A DNA stretch of 64,000 bases from the NCBI RefSeq assembly GCF_013185185.1, contig NZ_JAAZWE010000003.1:682001-746000 (forward strand), given 5' to 3'. The stretch's first letter is position 1. Each line of letters begins with the position of its first letter. Below, one piece after another: positions 4,413 to 15,444 of this stretch. The translations under genes and the position numbers were made by a program. Source of the stretch: Saccharibacillus endophyticus. GTDB lineage: Bacteria; Bacillota; Bacilli; Paenibacillales; Paenibacillaceae. The notes below the pieces were generated by a model. That model was not told the DNA's origin, ran no database searches, and worked only from the letters and a program-made list of their open reading frames with translations.

Positions 4413-5363
4413 TTAATCCGCAAGCAGGGCAAGCGCCGTAAACTGGTCCGTCACCAAAGTATTGGCATAACGTCCGGCCAGCGCCGCGCGAATCGAACGA
4501 ATTTTGCGCGGCCCCCCCGCTACGAGGATCGAACGCTCCTTGCGGCGCAGCTCGGACAGATCGATTCCGACCGTACGCGCATTGATCTCTTCGCTGCATA
4601 TGTTGCCGTTGTCGTCGAAGAAGCGGGAACAGATATCGCCTGCGCCGGCCTTCTGGAGACTGTGCCGCTGCGGCTCATCAAAATAACCGAGCCGGAACAG
4701 CAGCGCGTCCTCCTCGACGGTGCCGACGGTGAAAACCGCGACGTTGGCCTGACGGCCCAGTTCGATGATGCGCTGAATATGACGATCTTCCTCGACCATC
4801 CTTTTCAACTCTACGCTATCGAAAATGACCGGAAGCGGAAGATAGCGCGCGACGGTACCGAAAGCTTCCGCAAACAAATTTGCCGTCTCGGCAGCGTAAG
4901 TAGGCACCTGCGAATGGCTGACTCCGCCTTTGAGCTGCACGATTTCGACGCCGCGTACCGGTTTGTGCCGCAGCCCGAGCGCAAGCGCATGCATCGTCGT
5001 TCCCCATGTAATGCCGATAATATCCCCGTCTTGAATCGTTTCGTCCAAATATTCGGCGGCCTCAGCGGCTACGCGCGATCGAATCTCCCGGTAGTCGTTC
5101 AAGGGAGAATAGCAGACGCGTGCCGTTTGCAGACCGAATTTGCGGGTCAGTTCCGTTGCGAGCGCGTCCAAATCTTCAAGCGGATCGGCAATGGTGATGC
5201 GGACGAATCCGTTCTCTTTGGCATGTTGAAGCAAACGCGAGACGGTCGGGCGCGAGACGCCGAGCCTGACCGCGATATCTTGTTGACTGTAGTCGGACAG
5301 ATAGTAAAGCCTTGCAGCTTCAATGCTGAGGCGCTGCCTGTCCAGGTCGATTTTATCCGTCAT
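4413..5363 (-). CDS. deoR: SorC/DeoR-family transcriptional regulator of the deo genes
   Basis: The 316-residue protein has an N-terminal helix-turn-helix (YSQQDIAVRLGVSRPTVSRL, about 22-42) and a SorC-type sugar-phosphate-binding domain (IGITWGTTM near 118, QLKGG near 140, GGPRKIRSIRAAL near 285). Size and architecture match Bacillus subtilis DeoR (313 residues), which responds to deoxyribose 5-phosphate. The longer open frame is rejected because ATG at 5363 fits the family N-terminus; its ribosome site is weak (GAGGGAACG). Identification as DeoR rests mainly on the deoC/cdd/nupC/deoB context. Confidence 0.85.
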   Translation of the reverse strand: MTDKIDLDRQRLSIEAARLYYLSDYSQQDIAVRLGVSRPTVSRLLQHAKENGFVRITIADPLEDLDALATELTRKFGLQTARVCYSPLNDYREIRSRVAAEAAEYLDETIQDGDIIGITWGTTMHALALGLRHKPVRGVEIVQLKGGVSHSQVPTYAAETANLFAEAFGTVARYLPLPVIFDSVELKRMVEEDRHIQRIIELGRQANVAVFTVGTVEEDALLFRLGYFDEPQRHSLQKAGAGDICSRFFDDNGNICSEEINARTVGIDLSELRRKERSILVAGGPRKIRSIRAALAGRYANTLVTDQFTALALLAD

Positions 5364-5433
5364 GATCGTTCCCTCGATTTTTTTAGGTTCATTATACGTG
5401 TCTGCCGCATGCTTTGCACGGAAGAAAGAAAGC

Positions 5434-5447
5434 CACACTAAAGTGTG
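5434..5447. promoter_or_regulatory. Small palindrome upstream of deoR
   Basis: CACACTAAAGTGTG is a near-perfect 14-base palindrome 71 bases upstream of the deoR start, in the divergent gap to the phosphopantetheinyl transferase gene. It could be an operator for either gene. No clear -35/-10 pair was assigned around it. Confidence 0.3.
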
Positions 5448-5630
5448 AATCAAAAAAATGGGACTTAAGGATGAAATGAGACTTTTTTCTTAAAAGTATT
5501 TCATTTTTCACCGAATGTTCCGATATTCTTTGTGTGAGTTTTTTTGGTATCATAGGGAGAAAGAACGAATTTAGCAGGTTTTTCATCATACTCTCGTCGC
5601 ATACTCAAATATTCGGAAGGAGCCTGGCCC

Positions 5631-6392
5631 ATCGACGTCTTTGCAGTTTTCCTTGATCCGTTTCCTAAGCAAAAGGATTGGTCCGGCCTGATTTCCGCCT
5701 TTCATCCTGCGGAGCAGGCGCGTATTTCGCGTTTTGCACGTGAAGAGGACCGATTGCGCAAGGCAGCTTCGCATATGCTGCTGGCGATCGCGCTTGGAGA
5801 AAAGTTGGGCGCGGGCTACCGCGAGTTGATTTTTCGGCGCGGAGATTACGGCAAGCCGTATCTCGAGCGCGATCAAGCACCTAGGTTCAACGTGTCAGCC
5901 TCAGGTGCTCTTGTCGTATGCGCAATTGCTCGGACCGAGATCGGAATCGACGTCGAGCGCGTTGCGCCTCTTGAAACGTCGGCGATGCGTTTGCTGCTTG
6001 GACATGCGGAGTCCGCAGGACAAGCCTATTCTTCCGAGGAAGAGGAGCTTGATGTTTTTTATGAGCGTTGGACGATGTTGGAGAGCTGGTTGAAAGCGGA
6101 GGGGACAGGCTTGCACGATGAGTATCCGCTTGCGGCATTTGCCCCGAAGTCTATCGCGCCTAAACGCTTTCGCACGGAGGCCCGGCAGCCGGGAATGATT
6201 CCTTGGATTCTGACGTCGTTGAACGTTGCACCATCCGTGCCCGAGCATTATGCGCTGGCCGTTTGTCGAAGACCGGAAGAAGATTGGGCGGAAGAAGTCT
6301 TGTTGCTTGACGGGATGGAGCTGGCAAAGCGATTTCGAAAGTTGTTATCACGAGATGCACGATACGCGGAAGGGGAAAATAATAAGCGATGA
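5631..6392 (+). CDS. 4'-phosphopantetheinyl transferase, Sfp type (apparent AUC start)
   Basis: The product (253 residues from 5631) would load the carrier domains of the adjacent peptide synthetase with the CoA-derived arm. Motifs: FNVSASG (86-92), GIDVE (105-109, magnesium ligands D107 and E109) and WTMLESWLK (147-155). Read from the AUC codon at 5631 these fall at exactly the residue numbers of Bacillus Sfp, and the codon sits nine bases after GGAAGGAG. No ATG, GTG or TTG exists in frame until TTG 5754, which would delete 41 residues of the N-lobe. Two normally conserved residues differ: H90 is Ala and K150 is Leu. About 30 residues longer than Sfp at the C-terminus. Stop overlaps the NRPS start (ATGA). 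Confidence 0.85.
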   Translation: MDVFAVFLDPFPKQKDWSGLISAFHPAEQARISRFAREEDRLRKAASHMLLAIALGEKLGAGYRELIFRRGDYGKPYLERDQAPRFNVSASGALVVCAIARTEIGIDVERVAPLETSAMRLLLGHAESAGQAYSSEEEELDVFYERWTMLESWLKAEGTGLHDEYPLAAFAPKSIAPKRFRTEARQPGMIPWILTSLNVAPSVPEHYALAVCRRPEEDWAEEVLLLDGMELAKRFRKLLSRDARYAEGENNKR

Positions 6393-9300
6393 ATGCCCAG
6401 TTGAAGAATCATTCAGAAACCCGATGGCTGGAGAGATTGCAGGCTGTAGAGGAGAAGACGTTTTTGTCGGGCGAGACCGAGCCTGCTTCGAGCGAAATCG
6501 GACAGGTTGAGCGCGAGCTGCTTGCGCTTGATCCGTTTCTTTTACGCGGCGGAACTGCCCATGCTGCATGGGCCATTTTGCTTCAACGTTATTTGCGGAG
6601 TGAGGAGCAGTCATTTGCCGTTTATTCGTCGGATACGGGCGAGATGTTCCCTTTGTTGGTAAAAGGAAGCCGGGAAGATACATTCCGTATGCGTCTGGAG
6701 GCTGCGGCAGAGCTTCTGGGATCGACGGATTTGACATTGAAGCCAGAATATTTTGCGGAATTGTATGCTTCGGGTGCTGTGGATCGGCCTTACAATACGG
6801 GGATCGGATTCGATCTTCGCATCGGTGCCGAGCAAGCATTGGAGTCTTCGGACTGCGATCTATTCATCGTATTTTCCGGAACCGATTCGATTCATGCCCG
6901 CGCGGCTTTCCGAAAATCCGTGTTCGGCGAAACATTCGTGGAGAACGTGCTGGCGCATCTGCACGGAATTCTGGTTCGGATGACGGCGGCGCCGGACTCG
7001 CGGATCGGGGAAGAGGACCTGCTTGGCGAGCAGGAGCGGGAAGCTCTGTTGAACCTATGGAGCGGGAAACAGCATTCAATTGCAGCCGGTCGGCCGATTC
7101 ACCGCATGATCAAGGAGCGTGCGGCACTTGTGCCGAACCTTGATGCGGTCGTTTACGAAGGCGGATCGCTGAGCTACGCGGAGTTGGATCAACGCTCGGA
7201 CGTACTGGCTGCCGAATTGCGTCAAGCGGGGCTTGGAGACGGACAGATTGCCGGAATCATGGCGCGTCCGTCGGCAGAGATGATCCTGTCTGTCCTGGCC
7301 GTACTGAAGACCGGCGCTGCATATCTGCCGATCGATCCGGAATATCCGCAAGAACGCGTACGCTTTATGCTGGAAGACAGCGGAGCGGGACTGCTGCTGC
7401 TTACGCCGGGGCTTGACGCGCCGGGAAGTTACGCAGGCACCGCTTGGCGTATCGATAACGATCGGGATTGGGCAGTTCAGGTCGAAGAAACAACGTTCGG
7501 CGCATCGGATTCCGCTGCTTATGTCATCTATACATCAGGTTCCACAGGCACGCCCAAAGGCGTCGTGATCGAACATCGGTCGCTGATTAATTTGGCGGAA
7601 TGGCATATCGAGCATTTTCGTATCGATTCCACAGACCGCACCGTCAAATATGCAGGCTTCGGGTTCGATGCTTCGGTCTGGGAGATTTTCCCTTACCTGC
7701 TGTCCGGCGCTTCTATTTATATGATTCCGGAAGACCTGCGCCTTGACCCGTCCGGCTTGAATCAGCATTTTAATGAAAAAGGAATCACGATCGCTTTTCT
7801 TCCGACGCAGCTTTGCGAACAATTCATGGAATACGACAACGAATCGCTCCGTGTTTTGCTGACGGGCGGAGACAAACTGAAAACCTTCCGTGCGCGTTCA
7901 TACGAACTGCACAACTGCTACGGCCCGACCGAGAATACGATTGTGACCAGCTCGCATCTCGTAACCGAGATGGAAGGCAATATTCCGATCGGCAAGCCGG
8001 TTCGGGGTTCGCAAATCATGATTTTGGATGCTTACGGGCACTTGCAGCCGGTTGGCGTGGCCGGCGAACTTTGCGTGGCCGGCGACGGATTGGCTCGCGG
8101 TTATCTGAATCGTCCCGAACTGACTGCGGAGAAGTTCGTCCCGCATCCGTACGCGCAAGGTGAGCGCATGTACCGCACAGGCGATCTGGCGCGTTGGAAG
8201 AGTGACGGCACGATCGAATTCCTCGGCCGATTGGATCATCAAGTGAAAATCCGCGGCTTCCGTATCGAGATCGGCGAGATCGAACAGAGGATTCTGGAAA
8301 GCGAAGGCGTGCGCGATTGCGTCGTCGTTGCGTTGAAAGACGCTTCGGGCGACGCGTATCTGTGCGCCTACGTCGAATCTGATTCGGAGCGAAGCCATGC
8401 CGAGTGGAGCGACGAACTTGCGCTTACGCTGCCCGATTATATGGTTCCGGCTCATTTTGTCGCGCTGGATAAACTACCGGTCAATGCCAACGGCAAAATT
8501 GATCGCCGCGCGCTGCCGGAACCTCAGGTTCGTGAAGGCGCGGCTTATGAATCGCCACTGGGCGAAACCGAAGAGCGATTGCACGCGTTATGGAGCGAGA
8601 TCCTCGGGCATGATCGTTTTGGCGTGCTGGATCGGTTCTTCGATATCGGGGGTCACTCTCTTCAGGCGGCGGTATTGCGTGCGCAGATCGAACGTCGTTT
8701 TGGAGCAAAGCTGTCGATCCGCGAACTGTTTGAATACACGACCGTTCGTACGCAAGCCGCGGAGATTGCGCAGCGTGCCGGCGAAGCAAGTCTATCGTCC
8801 ATGGAGCTTCCGTCGATTTCAGCCGCGCTGCCGGCCGAGCATTACCCGACTTATCCGGCTCAAGCGCGTCTGTTCCTGATCGAGCAGATGGAAGGATCGG
8901 ATACGGCCTATAATGCGCCTGTGCTGCTTCGCATCGAAGGTAAGCTGGATGTGCGGCGTCTTGAATACTCCCTGCAGGAACTCGTCCGTCGGCACGAAGC
9001 GCTGCGCACGACTTTCGAACTTCGCGGAGAGCGGATTGTCCAGCATGTCCACGCGCAGGCGGAGCTTCGTCTGGCCGTATCGCGCGCCGGGGAACAGAAT
9101 ATCCGCGCCATGATGGATGCGTTCGTGCGCCCGTTTGACCTGAGTCGCGCGCCGTTGATGAGAGCCGGCCTTGTATCTTGCGAAAACGACCTGCACTTCA
9201 TCATGCTCGACTTTCACCATATCGCGGTTGACGGCGTGTCGATGCATGTCTTTTTTGAAGAGTGGTCGATGCTGTATCGCGGCGAAACGCCGGAACTGCC

Positions 9301-12300
9301 GACGATTCAGTTCAAAGACTTCTCGGTCTGGTATGCGCAGGGTGCTGCGGCCAGTATTCGGGAATCGCAGTTAGGCTATTGGCGGGAGCGTCTCGCAGGC
9401 GAACTGCCGATGCTCCAGCTTCCGACCGACAAGCCTCGCCCGGACAAGCAAAGTTTCCGGGGAGCGACCCTGCACGGCGGAATCGATCCGGAATTGCAAG
9501 CGAAGTTGAAAAAGTTGGCGGATCGCACGGGTACGACGTTATTCATGGTCATGCTCGCCGCCTACGGTACGTTGTTGTCCCGTTATGCGGGACAAGAAGA
9601 CGTGATTGTCGGTGTTCCTGTAGCCAACCGTAACCGCGAAGAACTGCACGGCGTAATCGGAATGTTCGTCAATACGCTTCCGCTGCGCACCTACCCGGAT
9701 AAGAAACAAACATTCGCAGCCTACTTGGATCATGTGAAAACGGAACTGCTCGGCGCATTCGATCATCAGGAATACGAGCTCGGCGAGCTGGTCAACGAGT
9801 TGAACGTTCCCCGGATTGCCGGACGCAGCCCGTTGTTCGACACCATGTTTGTCATGCAGAATACCGGCAGCCTCGCACCGGAGCTTGCAGGAGCGAAAAC
9901 GACGCTGGAGCTGTATGCGCCGGCTATTTCCAAATACGATTTGATGGTCGATGTGACGGAACAGGAGGACGGTATTCGGATCGACTTCCAATACTGCAGC
10001 GACTTGTTCGAGGCCGCTACGATTCGCGGAATGGCCGATCATTATGTGCAACTGCTGCAGTCTGCCGTAGTCAACGAGCATCTTGATTTGCATGCTCTGC
10101 CGATGCTTCGAGAAGAAGAAAAGCACTCGCTTATTTTCGATCTGAATGATACCTCGTCGCTCTATGAGCGCCATTTAACCATTCAAGAAGCGTTCGAACG
10201 CCAAGCTGCGCAATCGCCCGATCATCCGGCGGTTACTTTCGAAGGCATATCGCTGACTTACGCGGAATTAAACGAACGGTCCAATCGTCTTGCGCATACG
10301 CTTATCGAAAAAGGCGTTGCGGCCGATAAATTGGTAGGCCTGATGTTGGATCGTTCGCCGGAAATGATTATCGGGCTGCTCGGCATTTTGAAAGCAGGCG
10401 GAGCTTATGTACCGATCGACCCGGAATATCCGGAAGACCGTATTCGGTACATGATGGAGAACAGCGGCTCGGATCTGCTCTTGACCCAACGCCACCTGGC
10501 AGGCAAGCTTGAATTTAACGGAACTTCTCTGTATTTGGATGAAGCGGACGCGTATTCGCCGCGCACGGATAATCCGAAAGACCGTTCGACGGGCAGCGAT
10601 TTGCTTTACGTGATCTATACGTCCGGCACGACCGGCCGTCCGAAAGGCGTGATGTTGGAGCATCGCAATATGATGAATCTGATGCATTACGAGTATACGC
10701 GGACGAATATCGATTATACGGCTAGAGTGCTGCAATTCACGACGCTCAGCTTCGACGTCTGTTCGCAGGAGATCTGGTCAACGCTGCTTGCCGGGGGCAC
10801 GCTGTGCATGATTCGCAGCGAAATGAGACGCGAAGTCGGCCGGCTGCTGGATCTGATCGAGCAGCAGCAGATCAGCGTATTGTTCATGCCCGTATCGTTC
10901 CTGAAATTTATTTTGAGCGAAAAAGAATACGAAGAGCGCTTCCCGACCTGCATTCGCCATATCGTAACGGCAGGCGAACAGTTGGTCGTGCCGGAAAAAT
11001 TTCAGGAGCATCTGCGCCGCAACGGCATTTTCCTGCATAATCACTACGGGCCTTCGGAAACGCATGTCGCGACCGCACATACCCTTGATCCTGCGGGCGC
11101 GATTCCCGAGCTGCCTCCGATCGGAAAGCCGATTACCAATACGCGCATTTACATCCTGAACGATGCGCTTCGTCTCCAGCCGAAAGGCACGGCGGGCGAG
11201 TTGTATATTGCGGGAGAATGCGTGGGTCGCGGCTATTATAATCAACCGGAGCTAACTGCCGAGCGTTACTTGAACGATCCGTTCGAAGCAGGCGGCCGCA
11301 TGTACAAAACAGGCGATCTGGCGCGTTGGAACGAAGGCGGTGAACTGGAATTCCTCGGTCGATTGGACCACCAGGTCAAGATTCGAGGATTCCGGATCGA
11401 GTTGGGCGAGATCGAGACGGCGTTGCTGGAGCATTTCTCGGTCAAAGAAACCATCGTGTTGGCTAAGGAAGATGCAGCGGGCGGCAAATATCTGTGCGCG
11501 TATATCGCTTCGACGGCTCATGCGAACCAGCGCGAGCTGCGAGAGCATCTGGCGAACCGGTTGCCCGATTATATGATTCCCTCTTACTTCGTGCAGCTGG
11601 ATGCGATGCCGTTGACCCCGAACGGGAAAATCGACCGTCGTGCGCTGCCTGAGCCGCAGCCGGGAGAAATGCCGGCAGGTGCGGAATATGCCGAGCCGCA
11701 AAACGAGACGGAGCAAAGTATTGCAACCGTTTGGCAGAGCGTGTTGAGTGTAGGTCGCGTTGGAAGAGATGATAATTTCTTCGAGTTGGGCGGTCATTCG
11801 TTGAAAGCCGCCGTCATGGTCGCTCGTTTGCAAGAACAGTTTGAACTTAGCATTAACGATGTATTCGAGCATCAGACTTTGGCGGAGCTGGCGGCAGTGG
11901 TCAAGCCCGCATCGAACCGCATGGCGGAAAAACTCGCCGAATTGAAGGAAGCTAGCCGCAAGCAGGGCGAGGATACCTTGGTAGAAGCTCGCGAAACGTA
12001 TCGACGCCAGGCTAATAAGGATGCGACGTCTGTCGATCTGGCCCAACGTCGCGGCTATGAGGGCATTCTGCTGACAGGGGCTACCGGCTATGTCGGGGTG
12101 CATGTTCTGCGCGATATGCTCATGCAAACGAATTGGCAGATCTACGCGATTGTGCGCGGGGACGATGATGCTCAAGCGTTCCGCCGGGTGCGGAGCAAGC
12201 TTGATTTCTACTTCGGTACAGGCTCGTTGGACAAGGAAATAGAGCGACTTCATATCTGGAGCGGGGATTTGTCCGAAGAAAACATGGGGCTGTCCGAAGC

Positions 12301-13165
12301 CGCCTACAGCCGATTGCAGCAGGAAACGGATGCGATTGTGCATGCTGCGGCAACGGTAAAGCATTACGGCAGTTATGAGGACTTTAAACGGCACAATGTC
12401 GAGGCTACGGAGCGCTTGCTGCAATTGGCCGAGTCGGATCGGAAAAAAGACTTCCACCATATTTCTACGCTGGGTGTAGCCACAGGGGTTATTCCCGGAC
12501 GGGAAGAAGCATTCTTCGGCGAATACGACCTTAATCTCGGACAAGAATACGAGAACTACTATGCGAAGACCAAGTTCGAAGCGGAGGAGCGAGTCGTTCA
12601 AGCGAGAGAGCGGGGTCTGCGAACCAGCATTTATCGCCTCGGCAATGTCGTATTCCATTCGGAGACTGGCCGATTCCAGGAGAATATCGGGGAAAATGCC
12701 TTCTATACGATGATGCAGTCGTTTATTAATCTGGGCATGGTGCCTGAGCTTGCGCCGGATACGGACTTCTCTTACGTGGACGGAATCAGCCAATCGATTG
12801 TGTTGTTGATGCAGCCGGAGAATCTCCGGAACGAGACGTTCCATTTGTTGAATCCGAACCTGGAAAGCATGCACCGAATTTTGACGGCCGAGCAGGTCGA
12901 GTATAAAGTCCGACCGTTAGAATTTGCAAAATTTGTCGACGAGCTCATCGAGAAATTCCAGTCCGGAGAGTCTCGTTCCGAGATCGACAAGATTATGCTG
13001 CACTATGGTTGGTTGGAAAGCACGCAAATTCAAACGCGATTCGAGATTGCTTCAGACCGCACGGTTGCTTATTTAGAGCGGCTTGGCTTCAAATGGAAAG
13101 CTATGGATGAGGCGCTCATTTCGAAGATGATCCGTTATGCAAAGGAAACGTCTTTCCTAAAGTGA
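6389..13165 (+). CDS. Two-module nonribosomal peptide synthetase with terminal reductase (A-T-C-A-T-R)
   Basis: This 2258-residue enzyme should join two amino acids and release them reductively. Order: residues 1-225, C-terminal half of a condensation domain without HHxxxDG; A1 230-720 (YTSGSTGTPKG near 380); carrier 1 (GGHSL near 754); condensation domain (HHIAVDG near 942); A2 1265-1760 (YTSGTTGRPKG near 1410); carrier 2 (GGHSL near 1800); thioester reductase 1885-2258 with GATGYVG near 1896 and the YxxxK pair in YYAKTK near 2056. Specificity positions read by alignment to GrsA: A1 D-A-W-S-L-G-C-I-V (closest to Leu-type codes), A2 D-V-Q-A-V-A-H-V-A (closest to Pro-type codes); both tentative. 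The layout and coupled transferase match Staphylococcus AusA/AusB, which make pyrazinones. ATGA overlap with the upstream gene. Confidence 0.93.
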   Translation: MNAQLKNHSETRWLERLQAVEEKTFLSGETEPASSEIGQVERELLALDPFLLRGGTAHAAWAILLQRYLRSEEQSFAVYSSDTGEMFPLLVKGSREDTFRMRLEAAAELLGSTDLTLKPEYFAELYASGAVDRPYNTGIGFDLRIGAEQALESSDCDLFIVFSGTDSIHARAAFRKSVFGETFVENVLAHLHGILVRMTAAPDSRIGEEDLLGEQEREALLNLWSGKQHSIAAGRPIHRMIKERAALVPNLDAVVYEGGSLSYAELDQRSDVLAAELRQAGLGDGQIAGIMARPSAEMILSVLAVLKTGAAYLPIDPEYPQERVRFMLEDSGAGLLLLTPGLDAPGSYAGTAWRIDNDRDWAVQVEETTFGASDSAAYVIYTSGSTGTPKGVVIEHRSLINLAEWHIEHFRIDSTDRTVKYAGFGFDASVWEIFPYLLSGASIYMIPEDLRLDPSGLNQHFNEKGITIAFLPTQLCEQFMEYDNESLRVLLTGGDKLKTFRARSYELHNCYGPTENTIVTSSHLVTEMEGNIPIGKPVRGSQIMILDAYGHLQPVGVAGELCVAGDGLARGYLNRPELTAEKFVPHPYAQGERMYRTGDLARWKSDGTIEFLGRLDHQVKIRGFRIEIGEIEQRILESEGVRDCVVVALKDASGDAYLCAYVESDSERSHAEWSDELALTLPDYMVPAHFVALDKLPVNANGKIDRRALPEPQVREGAAYESPLGETEERLHALWSEILGHDRFGVLDRFFDIGGHSLQAAVLRAQIERRFGAKLSIRELFEYTTVRTQAAEIAQRAGEASLSSMELPSISAALPAEHYPTYPAQARLFLIEQMEGSDTAYNAPVLLRIEGKLDVRRLEYSLQELVRRHEALRTTFELRGERIVQHVHAQAELRLAVSRAGEQNIRAMMDAFVRPFDLSRAPLMRAGLVSCENDLHFIMLDFHHIAVDGVSMHVFFEEWSMLYRGETPELPTIQFKDFSVWYAQGAAASIRESQLGYWRERLAGELPMLQLPTDKPRPDKQSFRGATLHGGIDPELQAKLKKLADRTGTTLFMVMLAAYGTLLSRYAGQEDVIVGVPVANRNREELHGVIGMFVNTLPLRTYPDKKQTFAAYLDHVKTELLGAFDHQEYELGELVNELNVPRIAGRSPLFDTMFVMQNTGSLAPELAGAKTTLELYAPAISKYDLMVDVTEQEDGIRIDFQYCSDLFEAATIRGMADHYVQLLQSAVVNEHLDLHALPMLREEEKHSLIFDLNDTSSLYERHLTIQEAFERQAAQSPDHPAVTFEGISLTYAELNERSNRLAHTLIEKGVAADKLVGLMLDRSPEMIIGLLGILKAGGAYVPIDPEYPEDRIRYMMENSGSDLLLTQRHLAGKLEFNGTSLYLDEADAYSPRTDNPKDRSTGSDLLYVIYTSGTTGRPKGVMLEHRNMMNLMHYEYTRTNIDYTARVLQFTTLSFDVCSQEIWSTLLAGGTLCMIRSEMRREVGRLLDLIEQQQISVLFMPVSFLKFILSEKEYEERFPTCIRHIVTAGEQLVVPEKFQEHLRRNGIFLHNHYGPSETHVATAHTLDPAGAIPELPPIGKPITNTRIYILNDALRLQPKGTAGELYIAGECVGRGYYNQPELTAERYLNDPFEAGGRMYKTGDLARWNEGGELEFLGRLDHQVKIRGFRIELGEIETALLEHFSVKETIVLAKEDAAGGKYLCAYIASTAHANQRELREHLANRLPDYMIPSYFVQLDAMPLTPNGKIDRRALPEPQPGEMPAGAEYAEPQNETEQSIATVWQSVLSVGRVGRDDNFFELGGHSLKAAVMVARLQEQFELSINDVFEHQTLAELAAVVKPASNRMAEKLAELKEASRKQGEDTLVEARETYRRQANKDATSVDLAQRRGYEGILLTGATGYVGVHVLRDMLMQTNWQIYAIVRGDDDAQAFRRVRSKLDFYFGTGSLDKEIERLHIWSGDLSEENMGLSEAAYSRLQQETDAIVHAAATVKHYGSYEDFKRHNVEATERLLQLAESDRKKDFHHISTLGVATGVIPGREEAFFGEYDLNLGQEYENYYAKTKFEAEERVVQARERGLRTSIYRLGNVVFHSETGRFQENIGENAFYTMMQSFINLGMVPELAPDTDFSYVDGISQSIVLLMQPENLRNETFHLLNPNLESMHRILTAEQVEYKVRPLEFAKFVDELIEKFQSGESRSEIDKIMLHYGWLESTQIQTRFEIASDRTVAYLERLGFKWKAMDEALISKMIRYAKETSFLK

Positions 13166-13209
13166 CATTTCAATGAAAAGAAAGAATTTAAATGAAAAAA
13201 TGCAATTTT

Positions 13210-13244
13210 TTGCTTTGAATTCGACATTTTTTTTAGTACACTAG
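13210..13244 (+). promoter_or_regulatory. Putative promoter of the small gene at 13283
   Basis: Downstream of the NRPS stop, a TTGAAT hexamer is followed 16 bases later by TACACT, then about 35 bases on by a GGGGGA ribosome site. This suggests the small gene is transcribed on its own and not only by read-through. No terminator was recognised between the NRPS stop and this point. Confidence 0.35.
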
Positions 13245-13282
13245 AACTTGAGGCCACATATCTGAATTTAGGGGGATTTTCC

Positions 13283-13627
13283 ATGTTTAAGATCGAATAT
13301 ATTCCAGCTAAAAATCGTCTTGTTTGCACCGTAGAAAGCATTACGATGGATGAAGTTGAAGCCTACAACACGCAGTACAAAGCCGAACTGGCAAAAGTAA
13401 AACCGGGCTTCACAGGCCTGACCGATCTGAGCAAAGGCAAATTGTTCACGCAAGAAGTCGCGGTAGCGCTGGCTCCGCTGGGCGAGTTGTCCGTGCAAAA
13501 AGGCTTGACGAAATGGGCTTACTACACAGGTTCCGCGGTATCGAAAATGCAAATGAAGCGCATGTTCGGCGACATCGTCGTATCGTTCGAAAAACTTGAT
13601 GAAGCGGAAGCTTACCTGAACAGCTAA
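13283..13627 (+). CDS. Small unknown protein, possibly SpoIIAA/STAS-like fold
   Basis: The 114-residue soluble protein has no signal peptide or membrane segment. Its pattern of an N-terminal strand pair (MFKIEYIPAKNRLVCTVES), a helix with EVEAYNTQYKAEL, then GFTGLTDLSKG and a C-terminal helix FEKLDEAEAYL resembles the small SpoIIAA-like proteins in which a conserved GF(T)xLxDLS follows the first helix. That is an impression, not a confirmed family. GGGGGA lies about seven bases before ATG. It follows the NRPS by 117 bases, with its own terminator, so a role in the NRPS pathway is only possible. Confidence 0.7.
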   Translation: MFKIEYIPAKNRLVCTVESITMDEVEAYNTQYKAELAKVKPGFTGLTDLSKGKLFTQEVAVALAPLGELSVQKGLTKWAYYTGSAVSKMQMKRMFGDIVVSFEKLDEAEAYLNS

Positions 13628-13726
13628 AAGATTGGCTGTTTCAGCTCTTCTGTTTGTCAAAGCAGCTTGAAGTTGTCGCTTGGAAAGAATCCGTTCAGTG
13701 GCTGCAACGGACTTTCTAACGTGCCT

Positions 13727-13753
13727 AAGCCCGGTATACCCGGGCTTTTTTTG
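13727..13753 (+). terminator. Rho-independent terminator after the small gene
   Basis: AGCCCGG (13728-13734) pairs with CCGGGCT (13740-13746) across a five-base loop and is followed by seven T residues. Confidence 0.85.
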
Positions 13754-13783
13754 TAGACGTTCTGAGGGGAATGGTGGGGGACA

Positions 13784-15031
13784 ATGAATACACAGGCGAA
13801 CAAACGTATGATTTTAACCGGTGCAGCAGCTGTTGCATTGTTGGAAGTCGCGATTGCCTTTCTGTTTATGATGCCGGGCCGAGGTTGGGGAAGCTTCGTG
13901 CCGGGAATCATTTTGGCTGCGGCCGTGGGCGGCGGAGCCTTCGTATCCGGAATCTGGCTGGTGCTGCGCGCGATGGATCGCAGAGCGGAAGAGATGAACC
14001 AACATTTTGCGGCGGTTGGAGCGACAGAGAGTGCCGTAGCGGCTTCGGCAGAAGCGGAAGTCGACGAACCGGGCCAGGCTTCGCAAAAAGCGATGGAACG
14101 GATGCAGGATTATTTGCTGGAGATCGATCAAAATGTCGAGCAAGTCAAAGCTAACGCGGATGTCGGCGTATTCGTATCGGATCTGATCACCGAATCGGCT
14201 CGCAGCGCGGCAGCGCGTTCCGATGAGCAAACGGCAAAAATGAAGGAGATCTCGCGTACGACAAACGAAATGTCGGCAGCCGTTCAGCAGGTAGCCGGAA
14301 GCGCGGATGAAGTCGCAAGCGCGACATTAATCACTTCCGAACAGGCTTCTTCCGGTTACCAGCAGTTGGTCAGCGCGATGAATCAAGTTCGGAAGACGGA
14401 CAGCAGCATTCAGACGCTGCTTGAGCAAGTCAACCGTCTCGACGAGAAGTCGGGAGAGATCGAATATTTCGTAAGCATCATTACCGAAATCGCTTCGCAA
14501 ACGCATTTGCTTGCCTTGAATGCGGCAATCGAAGCGGCACGCGCGGGCGAATACGGACAAGGCTTCTCCGTTATCGCTTCGGAAGTTCGCAAATTGGCGG
14601 AACAATCTTCGGAATCGGCGAAGCGAGTGTCCACGATCAATGCGAGCATTCAGAAAGATACGAACGAAGTTGTCGACACTTCGTCTCAAGTCGCCGGCGA
14701 TATGAAAGAAGGAATCGGCTCCTTGGAAGAAGTCGGACGTTCCTTCCAGTTCATTCAGGCGGCAGTCGACGAAGTCAACATGCAAATGCAGGATGTGTCG
14801 GCTGCCGTGGAGCAGATTTCCGCGCATACGGAGCAGGTGAGCGATACGATTACCCATGCGGAACAGATGGTCGCCAGCACTTCGGAAGAAGTGGCAACCG
14901 TATGCCAAGCTGCGGAAGAGCAGCTGGCGAGCATGCAGCAATTGTCCGAAACGGTGAGCGGATTGTCCGAATTGACGGGCGGCGTCAAGCAGGCCGTTGA
15001 GCACTTCCGGGAATTGCAACCCGCCAATTAA
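13784..15031 (+). CDS. Methyl-accepting chemotaxis protein without extracellular sensor domain
   Basis: The 415-residue protein has two membrane helices at about 10-30 and 37-61 joined by only a few residues, so nothing substantial is exposed outside the cell. The rest is cytoplasmic: a linker without an obvious HAMP domain, then a signalling coiled coil with the conserved hairpin tip ([20 protein letters not shown], about 245-265; [10 protein letters not shown] just after). It would couple to CheA/CheW through that tip. Input may come from the membrane, the linker or the cytoplasm. GGTGGGGGA precedes the start. No other chemotaxis genes are nearby. Confidence 0.9.
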
Positions 15032-15070
15032 TAGGTAAAGCAGTGATGGATCATGATTCATCGTACATGC

Positions 15071-15110
15071 AAAAAGAGCGCACTCCGTGGTTACGGGATG
15101 CGCTCTTTTT
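15071..15110. terminator. Bidirectional terminator after the chemoreceptor gene
   Basis: AAAAAGAGCGCA (15071-15082) and TGCGCTCTTTTT (15099-15110) form a 12-pair stem with A- and T-rich ends, so it can serve the chemoreceptor gene (plus) and the convergent membrane-protein gene at 15184-15444 (minus). Confidence 0.85.
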
Positions 15111-15183
15111 GTGCAGTACGCGGACGGTTTTCGATGAAAACCGTTCAGGCGTTCTGGCTGGTTTTTGTTAGGGAATGATTCGG

Positions 15184-15444
15184 TTAGGCTCTGTTTCTGC
15201 GGCCAACCGAACGCATGATCAGGCTCACAACCGCTACTAGAACGATCGCACCGATCAATGCCGGAATAATGTAGAATCCTCCGATTTCGGGACCCATTTC
15301 TCCAAGAATAACTCCGCCGAGCCAACCGCCGATGAATCCGGCGATAATATTCCCGATGATGCCGCCAGGAATATCTCTGCCCACGATGAGACCGGCCAAC
15401 CAACCGATAACCCCGCCGATAATTAACGACCAGATAATGCCCAT
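15184..15444 (-). CDS. GlsB/YeaQ/YmgE-family small membrane protein
   Basis: The 86-residue product is almost wholly hydrophobic, with three membrane helices and glycine-rich turns (GGVIGWLAGLIVG near 10-22, GGIIGNIIAGFIGGWLGG near 27-44) and a basic end RSVGRRNRA. This is the glycine-zipper pattern of the transglycosylase-associated/GlsB family, found widely as general-stress envelope proteins of unknown biochemical role. AAGCGGAGG lies about eight bases before ATG. It is monocistronic, converging on the chemoreceptor gene. Confidence 0.88.
   Translation of the reverse strand: MGIIWSLIIGGVIGWLAGLIVGRDIPGGIIGNIIAGFIGGWLGGVILGEMGPEIGGFYIIPALIGAIVLVAVVSLIMRSVGRRNRA

Follow-up and report, generated by a model that had tools for sequence, protein, structure and literature searches.

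A leucine-proline-type dimodular synthetase with conserved STAS-fold and transducer-like partners in Saccharibacillus endophyticus and related genera

Does a phosphopantetheinyl transferase (PPTase) gene coupled to a lone dimodular nonribosomal peptide synthetase (NRPS) in Saccharibacillus endophyticus, a bacterium of soil and plants, represent the AusA/AusB pyrazinone system outside the staphylococci, or does the locus make something else? The gene pair lies in a window of 64,000 nucleotides (the whole stretch of DNA that was analyzed), whose contig belongs to a Saccharibacillus genome of 5.94 Mb. A preliminary description, made from the letters of the window, had read the pair as a self-contained AusA/AusB-like locus. 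We found that the pair is part of a real, conserved biosynthetic cassette, which also encodes a STAS-fold protein and a methyl-accepting transducer-like protein (MCP), and that the adenylation pockets of the synthetase point to leucine followed by proline. The best explanation as a whole, to which we assign a probability of roughly 0.6, is that the synthetase releases a Leu-Pro aldehyde that would close to a bicyclic imine, with the STAS-fold protein and MCP sensing or regulating.

Gene pair and synthetase domains

Open reading frames and Pfam matches confirmed the basic architecture described earlier, namely a PPTase and a dimodular, reductase-ending NRPS of 2258 amino acids (aa) coupled by an ATGA start/stop overlap at 6389–6392 (coordinates are those of the window unless another locus is named, and all features described in the window lie on the + strand). 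The PPTase, of the Sfp/AusB 4'-phosphopantetheinyl transferase type, spans 5631–6392 from an apparent ATC start; it matches PF22624 (3e-14) and PF01648 (2.2e-10) and is one of two PF01648 matches in the genome. The NRPS spans 6389–13165 and holds the sole Condensation match of the 5.94-Mb genome. Of the other orthologues compared, the S. sacchari DSM 19268 locus (L030) alone has this ATGA overlap; in the remaining seven, spacers separate the two genes.

Pfam placed two AMP-binding, one Condensation, two PP-binding and one NAD_binding_4 domain on the NRPS, all above cut-offs. Together with NCBIfam, this supports the order A-T-C-A-T-R (adenylation, A; carrier, T; condensation, C; reductase, R) assigned previously, to which a truncated condensation-like domain must be added at the N terminus (aa 1–225; 6389–7063), giving a partial C-A-T-C-A-T-R layout. 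This segment has no Pfam or NCBIfam match and lacks HHxxxDG, a motif that occurs only at aa 943, but its AlphaFold2 (AF2) model (mean pLDDT 82.3) was matched best by Foldseek to the SrfA-C condensation domain (E 1.8e-11), and in a relative (L115) Pfam places the corresponding segment on positions 371–455 of 456 of the Condensation model. Downstream of it lie A1 (7070–8533, assigned by NCBIfam and alignment, with the A10 lysine at aa 703), T1 (8573–8761, PF00550, GGHSL at aa 754), the C domain (8837–10132, PF00668, with its HHxxxDG motif reading HHIAVDG), A2 (10193–11629, assigned by alignment and PDB comparison), T2 (11696–11908, limits approximate; a second PF00550 stretch with GGHSL at aa 1801) and the thioester reductase domain R (12065–13159; TIGR01746 and PF07993), in which GATGYVG begins at aa 1897 and YxxxK corresponds to Y2058/K2062.

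Predicted substrates

Nine pocket columns were read off MAFFT alignments for A1 in 24 loci and for A2 in 23. A1 carries DAWFLGCIV in all 10 Saccharibacillus loci, and A2 carries DVQFVAHVA in all 9 with an intact A2. The 14 loci from five other genera have DAWF[LV]GCVV and DVQFIAHV[AV], so that a single pattern holds throughout (A1 DAWF[LV]GC[IV]V, n = 24; A2 DVQF[VI]AHV[AV], n = 23); we refer to these as Leu-Pro-type loci. These pockets, Leu-like and then Pro-like, do not support an AusA-like residue pair (valine, then an aromatic residue).

A2 is probably proline-type. In the PDB, the 116-aa segment containing its pocket matched only GrsB (8p5o) and TycB (9bfd_B) at E ≤ 1e-10, and we take the first modules of both to be proline-activating. 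Single-module best matches to the whole domain were to TycB (639 bits) and GrsB (502 bits), with TycA at 444 bits; LgrA chains outranked others only as the sum of two domains (414 + 385 bits). Val236 and Gln239 have been found in 59 of 71 proline A domains (PMC12283262), and every A2 domain that could be read (n = 23) has the corresponding DVQ. A1 appears to be leucine-like, a reading that is less secure than proline for A2. Its pocket equals DAWFLGNVV at seven of nine positions, DAWFLGNVV(K) being the first-named code for Leu/Ile/Val (PMC12283262). At 1e-12, its PDB matches were LgrA constructs and otherwise only McyB, from a structure titled as L-Leu-bound.

A conserved cassette with two further genes

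Our survey of the family covered 394 genomes, with an R domain at E ≤ 1e-85 in 58 and a STAS match at 1e-5 in 87. Leu-Pro-type loci numbered 24 across six genera of the family, the 14 from outside Saccharibacillus having 50–56% full-length identity to the NRPS of the window. Within Saccharibacillus, 10 of 16 genomes have the R domain at ≥72% identity, one copy (in G010) being partial. We examined 22 further loci with long frames, leaving out frames of 1546 aa, 2974 aa and similar ones as well as four genomes of genus g10 (described below), and further Leu-Pro-type loci may occur in the family. The catalytic motifs of C, T, A and R are complete in all 23 intact Leu-Pro-type synthetases aligned. 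When 46 R domains were placed in a maximum-likelihood tree, the 23 rows of Leu-Pro type formed one group (98/98), drawn beside an Ile/Val-type group (89/92). To judge by their pockets, proline and Ile/Val versions occur side by side within one bacterial family.

Two genes follow the NRPS. The first (13283–13627) encodes the STAS-fold partner protein of 114 aa, and the second (13784–15031) the MCP, a transmembrane protein recognized by PF00015 (8.1e-44) and hydropathy. By tblastn, all 24 Leu-Pro-type loci have the STAS protein past the NRPS (56–99% identity), and 22 of 24 have the MCP. Other neighbors are unshared among seven of the loci (L083–L085, L087, L090, L094 and L096), yet STAS and MCP recur. 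Among the 16 Saccharibacillus genomes, STAS occurs in exactly the 10 that have the NRPS. Median identity between the window and other genera was 67% for A2, 64% for STAS, 48% for R and 37% for the MCP. The statement that the pair lacks flanking exporter, regulator and tailoring genes consequently fails on the downstream side, and the two conserved partners do not fit a self-contained two-gene system. The gap between NRPS and STAS is usually ~90–150 bp. No promoter-like site was found by a promoter scan in 5360–5660 or 13100–15250, and terminator-like sites downstream were at shuffle level (3 found vs 3.1 in shuffles).

The assignment of the partner protein to the STAS fold comes from its predicted structure. 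The AF2 model (pLDDT 93.2) had RsbS, SpoIIAA and relatives as top Foldseek matches (RsbS E 1.3e-4, TM 0.70), and VIA-align matched it to 2q3l_B, a DUF3478 SpoIIAA-like protein (Z 12.1, rmsd 2.6, 107 aligned). At the sequence level, the PDB gave weak unrelated matches only (best E 0.086), and Pfam gave no match for the window protein; among 33 aligned members, two matched PF11964, the better at E 0.0012. The protein shares its fold with SpoIIAA-like STAS proteins (DUF3478, RsbS and SpoIIAA) and differs from them in its link to an NRPS as well as in this lack of a Pfam match. In one locus (L090, genome G281), three tandem STAS copies lie past the synthetase at ~11089–11938.

Hydropathy of the MCP indicated two adjacent N-terminal hydrophobic segments (aa 8–36 and 37–65); a HAMP domain was looked for in the window MCP and not found. 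This arrangement leaves little room for an extracytoplasmic sensor and would be in keeping with a signal arising in the membrane or cytoplasm. That STAS and MCP are functional partners that sense or regulate the product is suggested by their conservation and is the most speculative part of our explanation. The partner set was unexpected, and our search of open-licence PMC papers turned up no description of a Leu-Pro product, a proline branch or a STAS/MCP link.

Release mechanism and predicted product

The R domain scored 226.5 bits against TIGR01746 (thioester reductase), above the cut-off of 213.35, and this score and its motifs indicate an intact reductase, in line with the earlier description of one with GATGYVG and YxxxK. 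Redox-inactive, Dieckmann-type R* domains have lost the catalytic Tyr. Because Thr and YxxxK are retained in 23 of 23 intact Leu-Pro-type synthetases aligned, a domain of this redox-dead type appears unlikely here. A dedicated PPTase is likewise supported and a cyclic imine is a reasonable product, in agreement with those parts of the preliminary description.

From the domains, catalytic residues, pockets and conserved cassette, which are read directly from sequence, we infer the substrates, a two-electron release, ring closure and sensing as follows. The dedicated PPTase would charge the dimodular NRPS, A1 would load L-Leu and A2 L-Pro, and the C domain would join the two. R would then free L-leucyl-L-prolinal via one hydride transfer, after which the free amine would attack the aldehyde to give a six-membered bicyclic imine, 3-isobutyl-6,7,8,8a-tetrahydropyrrolo[1,2-a]pyrazin-4-one, which may oxidize to a fused pyrazinone. 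Sensing or regulation of this product would most likely be the task of the STAS-fold protein and, in most loci, of the MCP.

A tentative extension, which we consider possible though doubtful, is that the cassette is a signaling unit. The Leu-Pro imine or pyrrolopyrazinone would be an intracellular or membrane-permeant signal, STAS would bind it or the synthetase, the loop-poor MCP would relay it to the chemotaxis network, and an AUC-started PPTase would throttle synthesis. Pyrazinones act as signals in Klebsiella oxytoca (PMC11480411), and the biological role of aureusimines is stated as unknown in PMC12153313. If our explanation of the locus is correct, the R-ending dimodular synthetases would include a proline-terminated branch whose predicted product is simple, and the locus would offer genetically linked candidate partners (STAS and MCP), lacking in the aureusimine work, with which to probe the role of such compounds.

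Comparison with AusA/AusB and other synthetases

The locus resembles AusA/AusB in having a PPTase that adjoins a dimodular synthetase with the A-T-C-A-T-R domain order of AusA (NF047350). As stated for S. aureus in PMC12153313, the synthetase is also the lone NRPS of its genome. AusA and AusB are the best NCBIfam models for the NRPS and PPTase, respectively. Membership in either family was nonetheless rejected: the NRPS scored 1388.8 bits against a cut-off of 2500 for NF047350, and the PPTase 50.3 bits against a cut-off of 225 for NF047349 (AusB), for which the fragment from 5754 was scored. On the AusA model, a true AusA (L108) reached 3932 bits, an Ile/Val-type synthetase (L097) 1760, another R-ending dimodular synthetase (L039) 1536 and a Leu-Pro-type one from another genus (L083) 1461. 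Full-length identity of the NRPS was 29% and 31% to two AusA loci (L107 and L108, respectively), the pockets of L108 are DAFWLGGTF and DAWSVGAVI (valine plus aromatic), and in the R-domain tree AusA falls outside the Leu-Pro group on long branches, a placement flagged as unsure by the tool. Gene order differs too, AusB being downstream of AusA in both loci and the PPTase upstream here, and neither STAS nor MCP was seen in the AusA flanks examined (only 2–3 kb past AusB). An AusA-type Val-Phe/Tyr pyrazinone synthetase outside the staphylococci, the literal form of the analogy originally drawn from the shared core domain string, is thus very improbable.

Tilivalline/tomaymycin-type (pyrrolobenzodiazepine) synthetases likewise have a proline module followed by T-R, and the acyl-prolinal they release cyclizes to an imine. 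Their first module loads anthranilate, whereas A1 here is Leu-like, the synthetase is one protein and a six- rather than seven-membered ring is expected; on its A1 pocket (DAWFLGCIV), the NRPS was rejected as a member of this group. By analogy, release is likely nearer to that of tilivalline than to that of phevalin. The R domain of the tilivalline system acts on a 3-hydroxyanthranilate-proline thioester, which it reduces; when transplanted, this domain leads to pyrazinones (PMC7586950).

Within the family, the R-ending dimodular synthetases of genus g10 (L097–L102, L104, L105, L109 and L110) share the layout, form the sister R-domain group and have STAS downstream, with a PPTase directly upstream in five. 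Their pockets, which we take to be Ile- or Val-like, differ from those here, being DAFF[LF]GITF followed by DAFWLGGTF (8 of 10) or DAFFFGITF (2 of 10). An independent profile built from the 24 Leu-Pro-type STAS proteins located a gene 110–431 bp past R in 12 of 14 g10 genomes, and a second STAS profile, in which 8 of 10 g10 proteins were included, located STAS in 10 of 10 g10 loci (broken in L101). These STAS proteins are diverged. Where present, the g10 MCP is longer than the one here and has an extracytoplasmic part and HAMP.

Alternative explanations

Several observations weigh against parts of the Leu-Pro imine explanation and bear on its rivals. Compared over the whole domain, A1 is closest to A1 of LgrA, which we take to be Val-specific. 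For release, the R domain scored almost equally against AusA (165 bits) and MxcG (157 bits), and its best solved match was MxaA (126 bits), followed by the R domain of AusA (106 bits); MxaA and MxcG are, we assume, alcohol/amine-type releasers, and such scores do not separate two- from four-electron classes. A four-electron release to the linear alcohol leucyl-prolinol would accommodate these matches, but no further reductase was seen in the conserved unit and the sister Ile/Val-type synthetases share the layout, and we regard this outcome as unlikely while granting it some weight. Prolinals inhibit prolyl peptidases. Peptide aldehydes, moreover, are often protease inhibitors (PMC7586950), so that the aldehyde itself might be the active product and cyclization a side reaction. 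This is improbable in our estimation, given that ring closure between the free N-terminal amine and the aldehyde is to be expected and that the synthetase has no N-capping domain, just its truncated C-like start.

The partner genes could instead be mere genomic neighbors with no role in the pathway. STAS relatives at lower scores occur alone, with neither R-type NRPS nor MCP, in 16 of 16 further regions, the MCP is missing from two Leu-Pro-type loci (L031 and L035), and the gap between NRPS and STAS would permit separate transcription. In Saccharibacillus, the 10-of-16 pattern may reflect a single gain or loss, since the six cassette-less species look like one separate group (identity of the flanking regulator is 71–73%, against 89–97% in the four orthologue loci measured). 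Among the 16 further regions, a STAS gene of 56% identity in L111 (G207) adjoins a major facilitator superfamily (MFS) exporter without an NRPS, and in L115 (G081; 6472–8832 of that locus) STAS lies beside a shortened, 652-aa protein that combines half a condensation domain with an AMP-binding domain and may be a decayed synthetase. Against a mere-neighbor view stand the retention of STAS in every Leu-Pro-type locus and of MCP in all but two across six genera, and the recurrence of STAS past most Ile/Val-type synthetases; we consider that view rather unlikely.

Start codon of the PPTase

The PPTase frame opens with ATC at 5631, 8 nt downstream of a Shine-Dalgarno (SD) sequence (AAGGAG, 5617–5622), and the sole ATG/GTG/TTG in its first ~66 codons is the TTG at 5754, inside the domain. 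Across nine Saccharibacillus PPTases (the window with L030–L035, L037 and L038), the start column reads ATC in eight and ATA in one, preceded in all nine by an SD-like run of purines in the same position; in seven more distant PPTases, the codon in this column is ATG. In the window, L034 and L037, no ATG/GTG/TTG occurs from the frame opening until codon +19 or later, and a possible alternative start, GTG at +2, exists in L032, L033 and L038. The alignment thus points to a conserved AUC codon as the apparent start of the PPTase. In S. aureus, conserved AUA/AUU starts with strong SDs gave ~10% of AUG expression in poor medium, and weak-start control is described for infC, ccpN and cvfC1 (PMC13009471); an AUC start of the PPTase, if true, would be a further case.

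A PPTase is found with the NRPS in every Saccharibacillus locus except L036 (9 of 10) and in 8 of 14 other Leu-Pro-type stretches; it is upstream on the same strand in the g9 loci, and L083 and L084 have it downstream on the opposite strand. In all nine Saccharibacillus PPTases, Leu or Phe replaces the Lys of WxxKE (window 6068–6110); 15 of the 16 other rows retain this Lys, and the sixteenth, L101, is broken there. Six of nine g9 loci have an MFS exporter of the kind seen in L111 ahead of the PPTase (BLAST grouping, Pfam-checked in L089 and L111 only).

Related loci and cassette-less genomes

In genome G003, probably S. brassicae ATSA2, the R domain lies at 1,045,136–1,046,260, within "Region 4, NRPS", which is given no similar known cluster in Table 3 of PMC9867790; the locus was already flagged by antiSMASH in this one species, without a product. 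In L038 (G010, S. qingshengii), A2, T2 and the beginning of R are missing from the NRPS, and STAS and MCP are kept. In tblastn, aa 1–1183 and 2053–2257 align there with no close counterpart between them, and the stretch is free of N; the gap is either an internal deletion or an assembly collapse.

Three Saccharibacillus genomes without the Leu-Pro cassette (G002, G004 and G015; L039–L041) have another R-ending dimodular NRPS with pockets DAWFLGNVV and DGFLLGVV[CG], and neither STAS nor MCP was found in the stretches examined beside it. In the six Saccharibacillus species without the cassette, the flanking regulator and an 86-aa gene are ~1.5 kb apart, and the 7.1-kb stretches of these species gave no match for PPTase, NRPS, STAS or MCP. 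In four of these stretches (L128, L130, L131 and L132), a gene of ~300 aa fills the gap, matching Pfam Mn_catalase in L128 and having similar starts in the other three.

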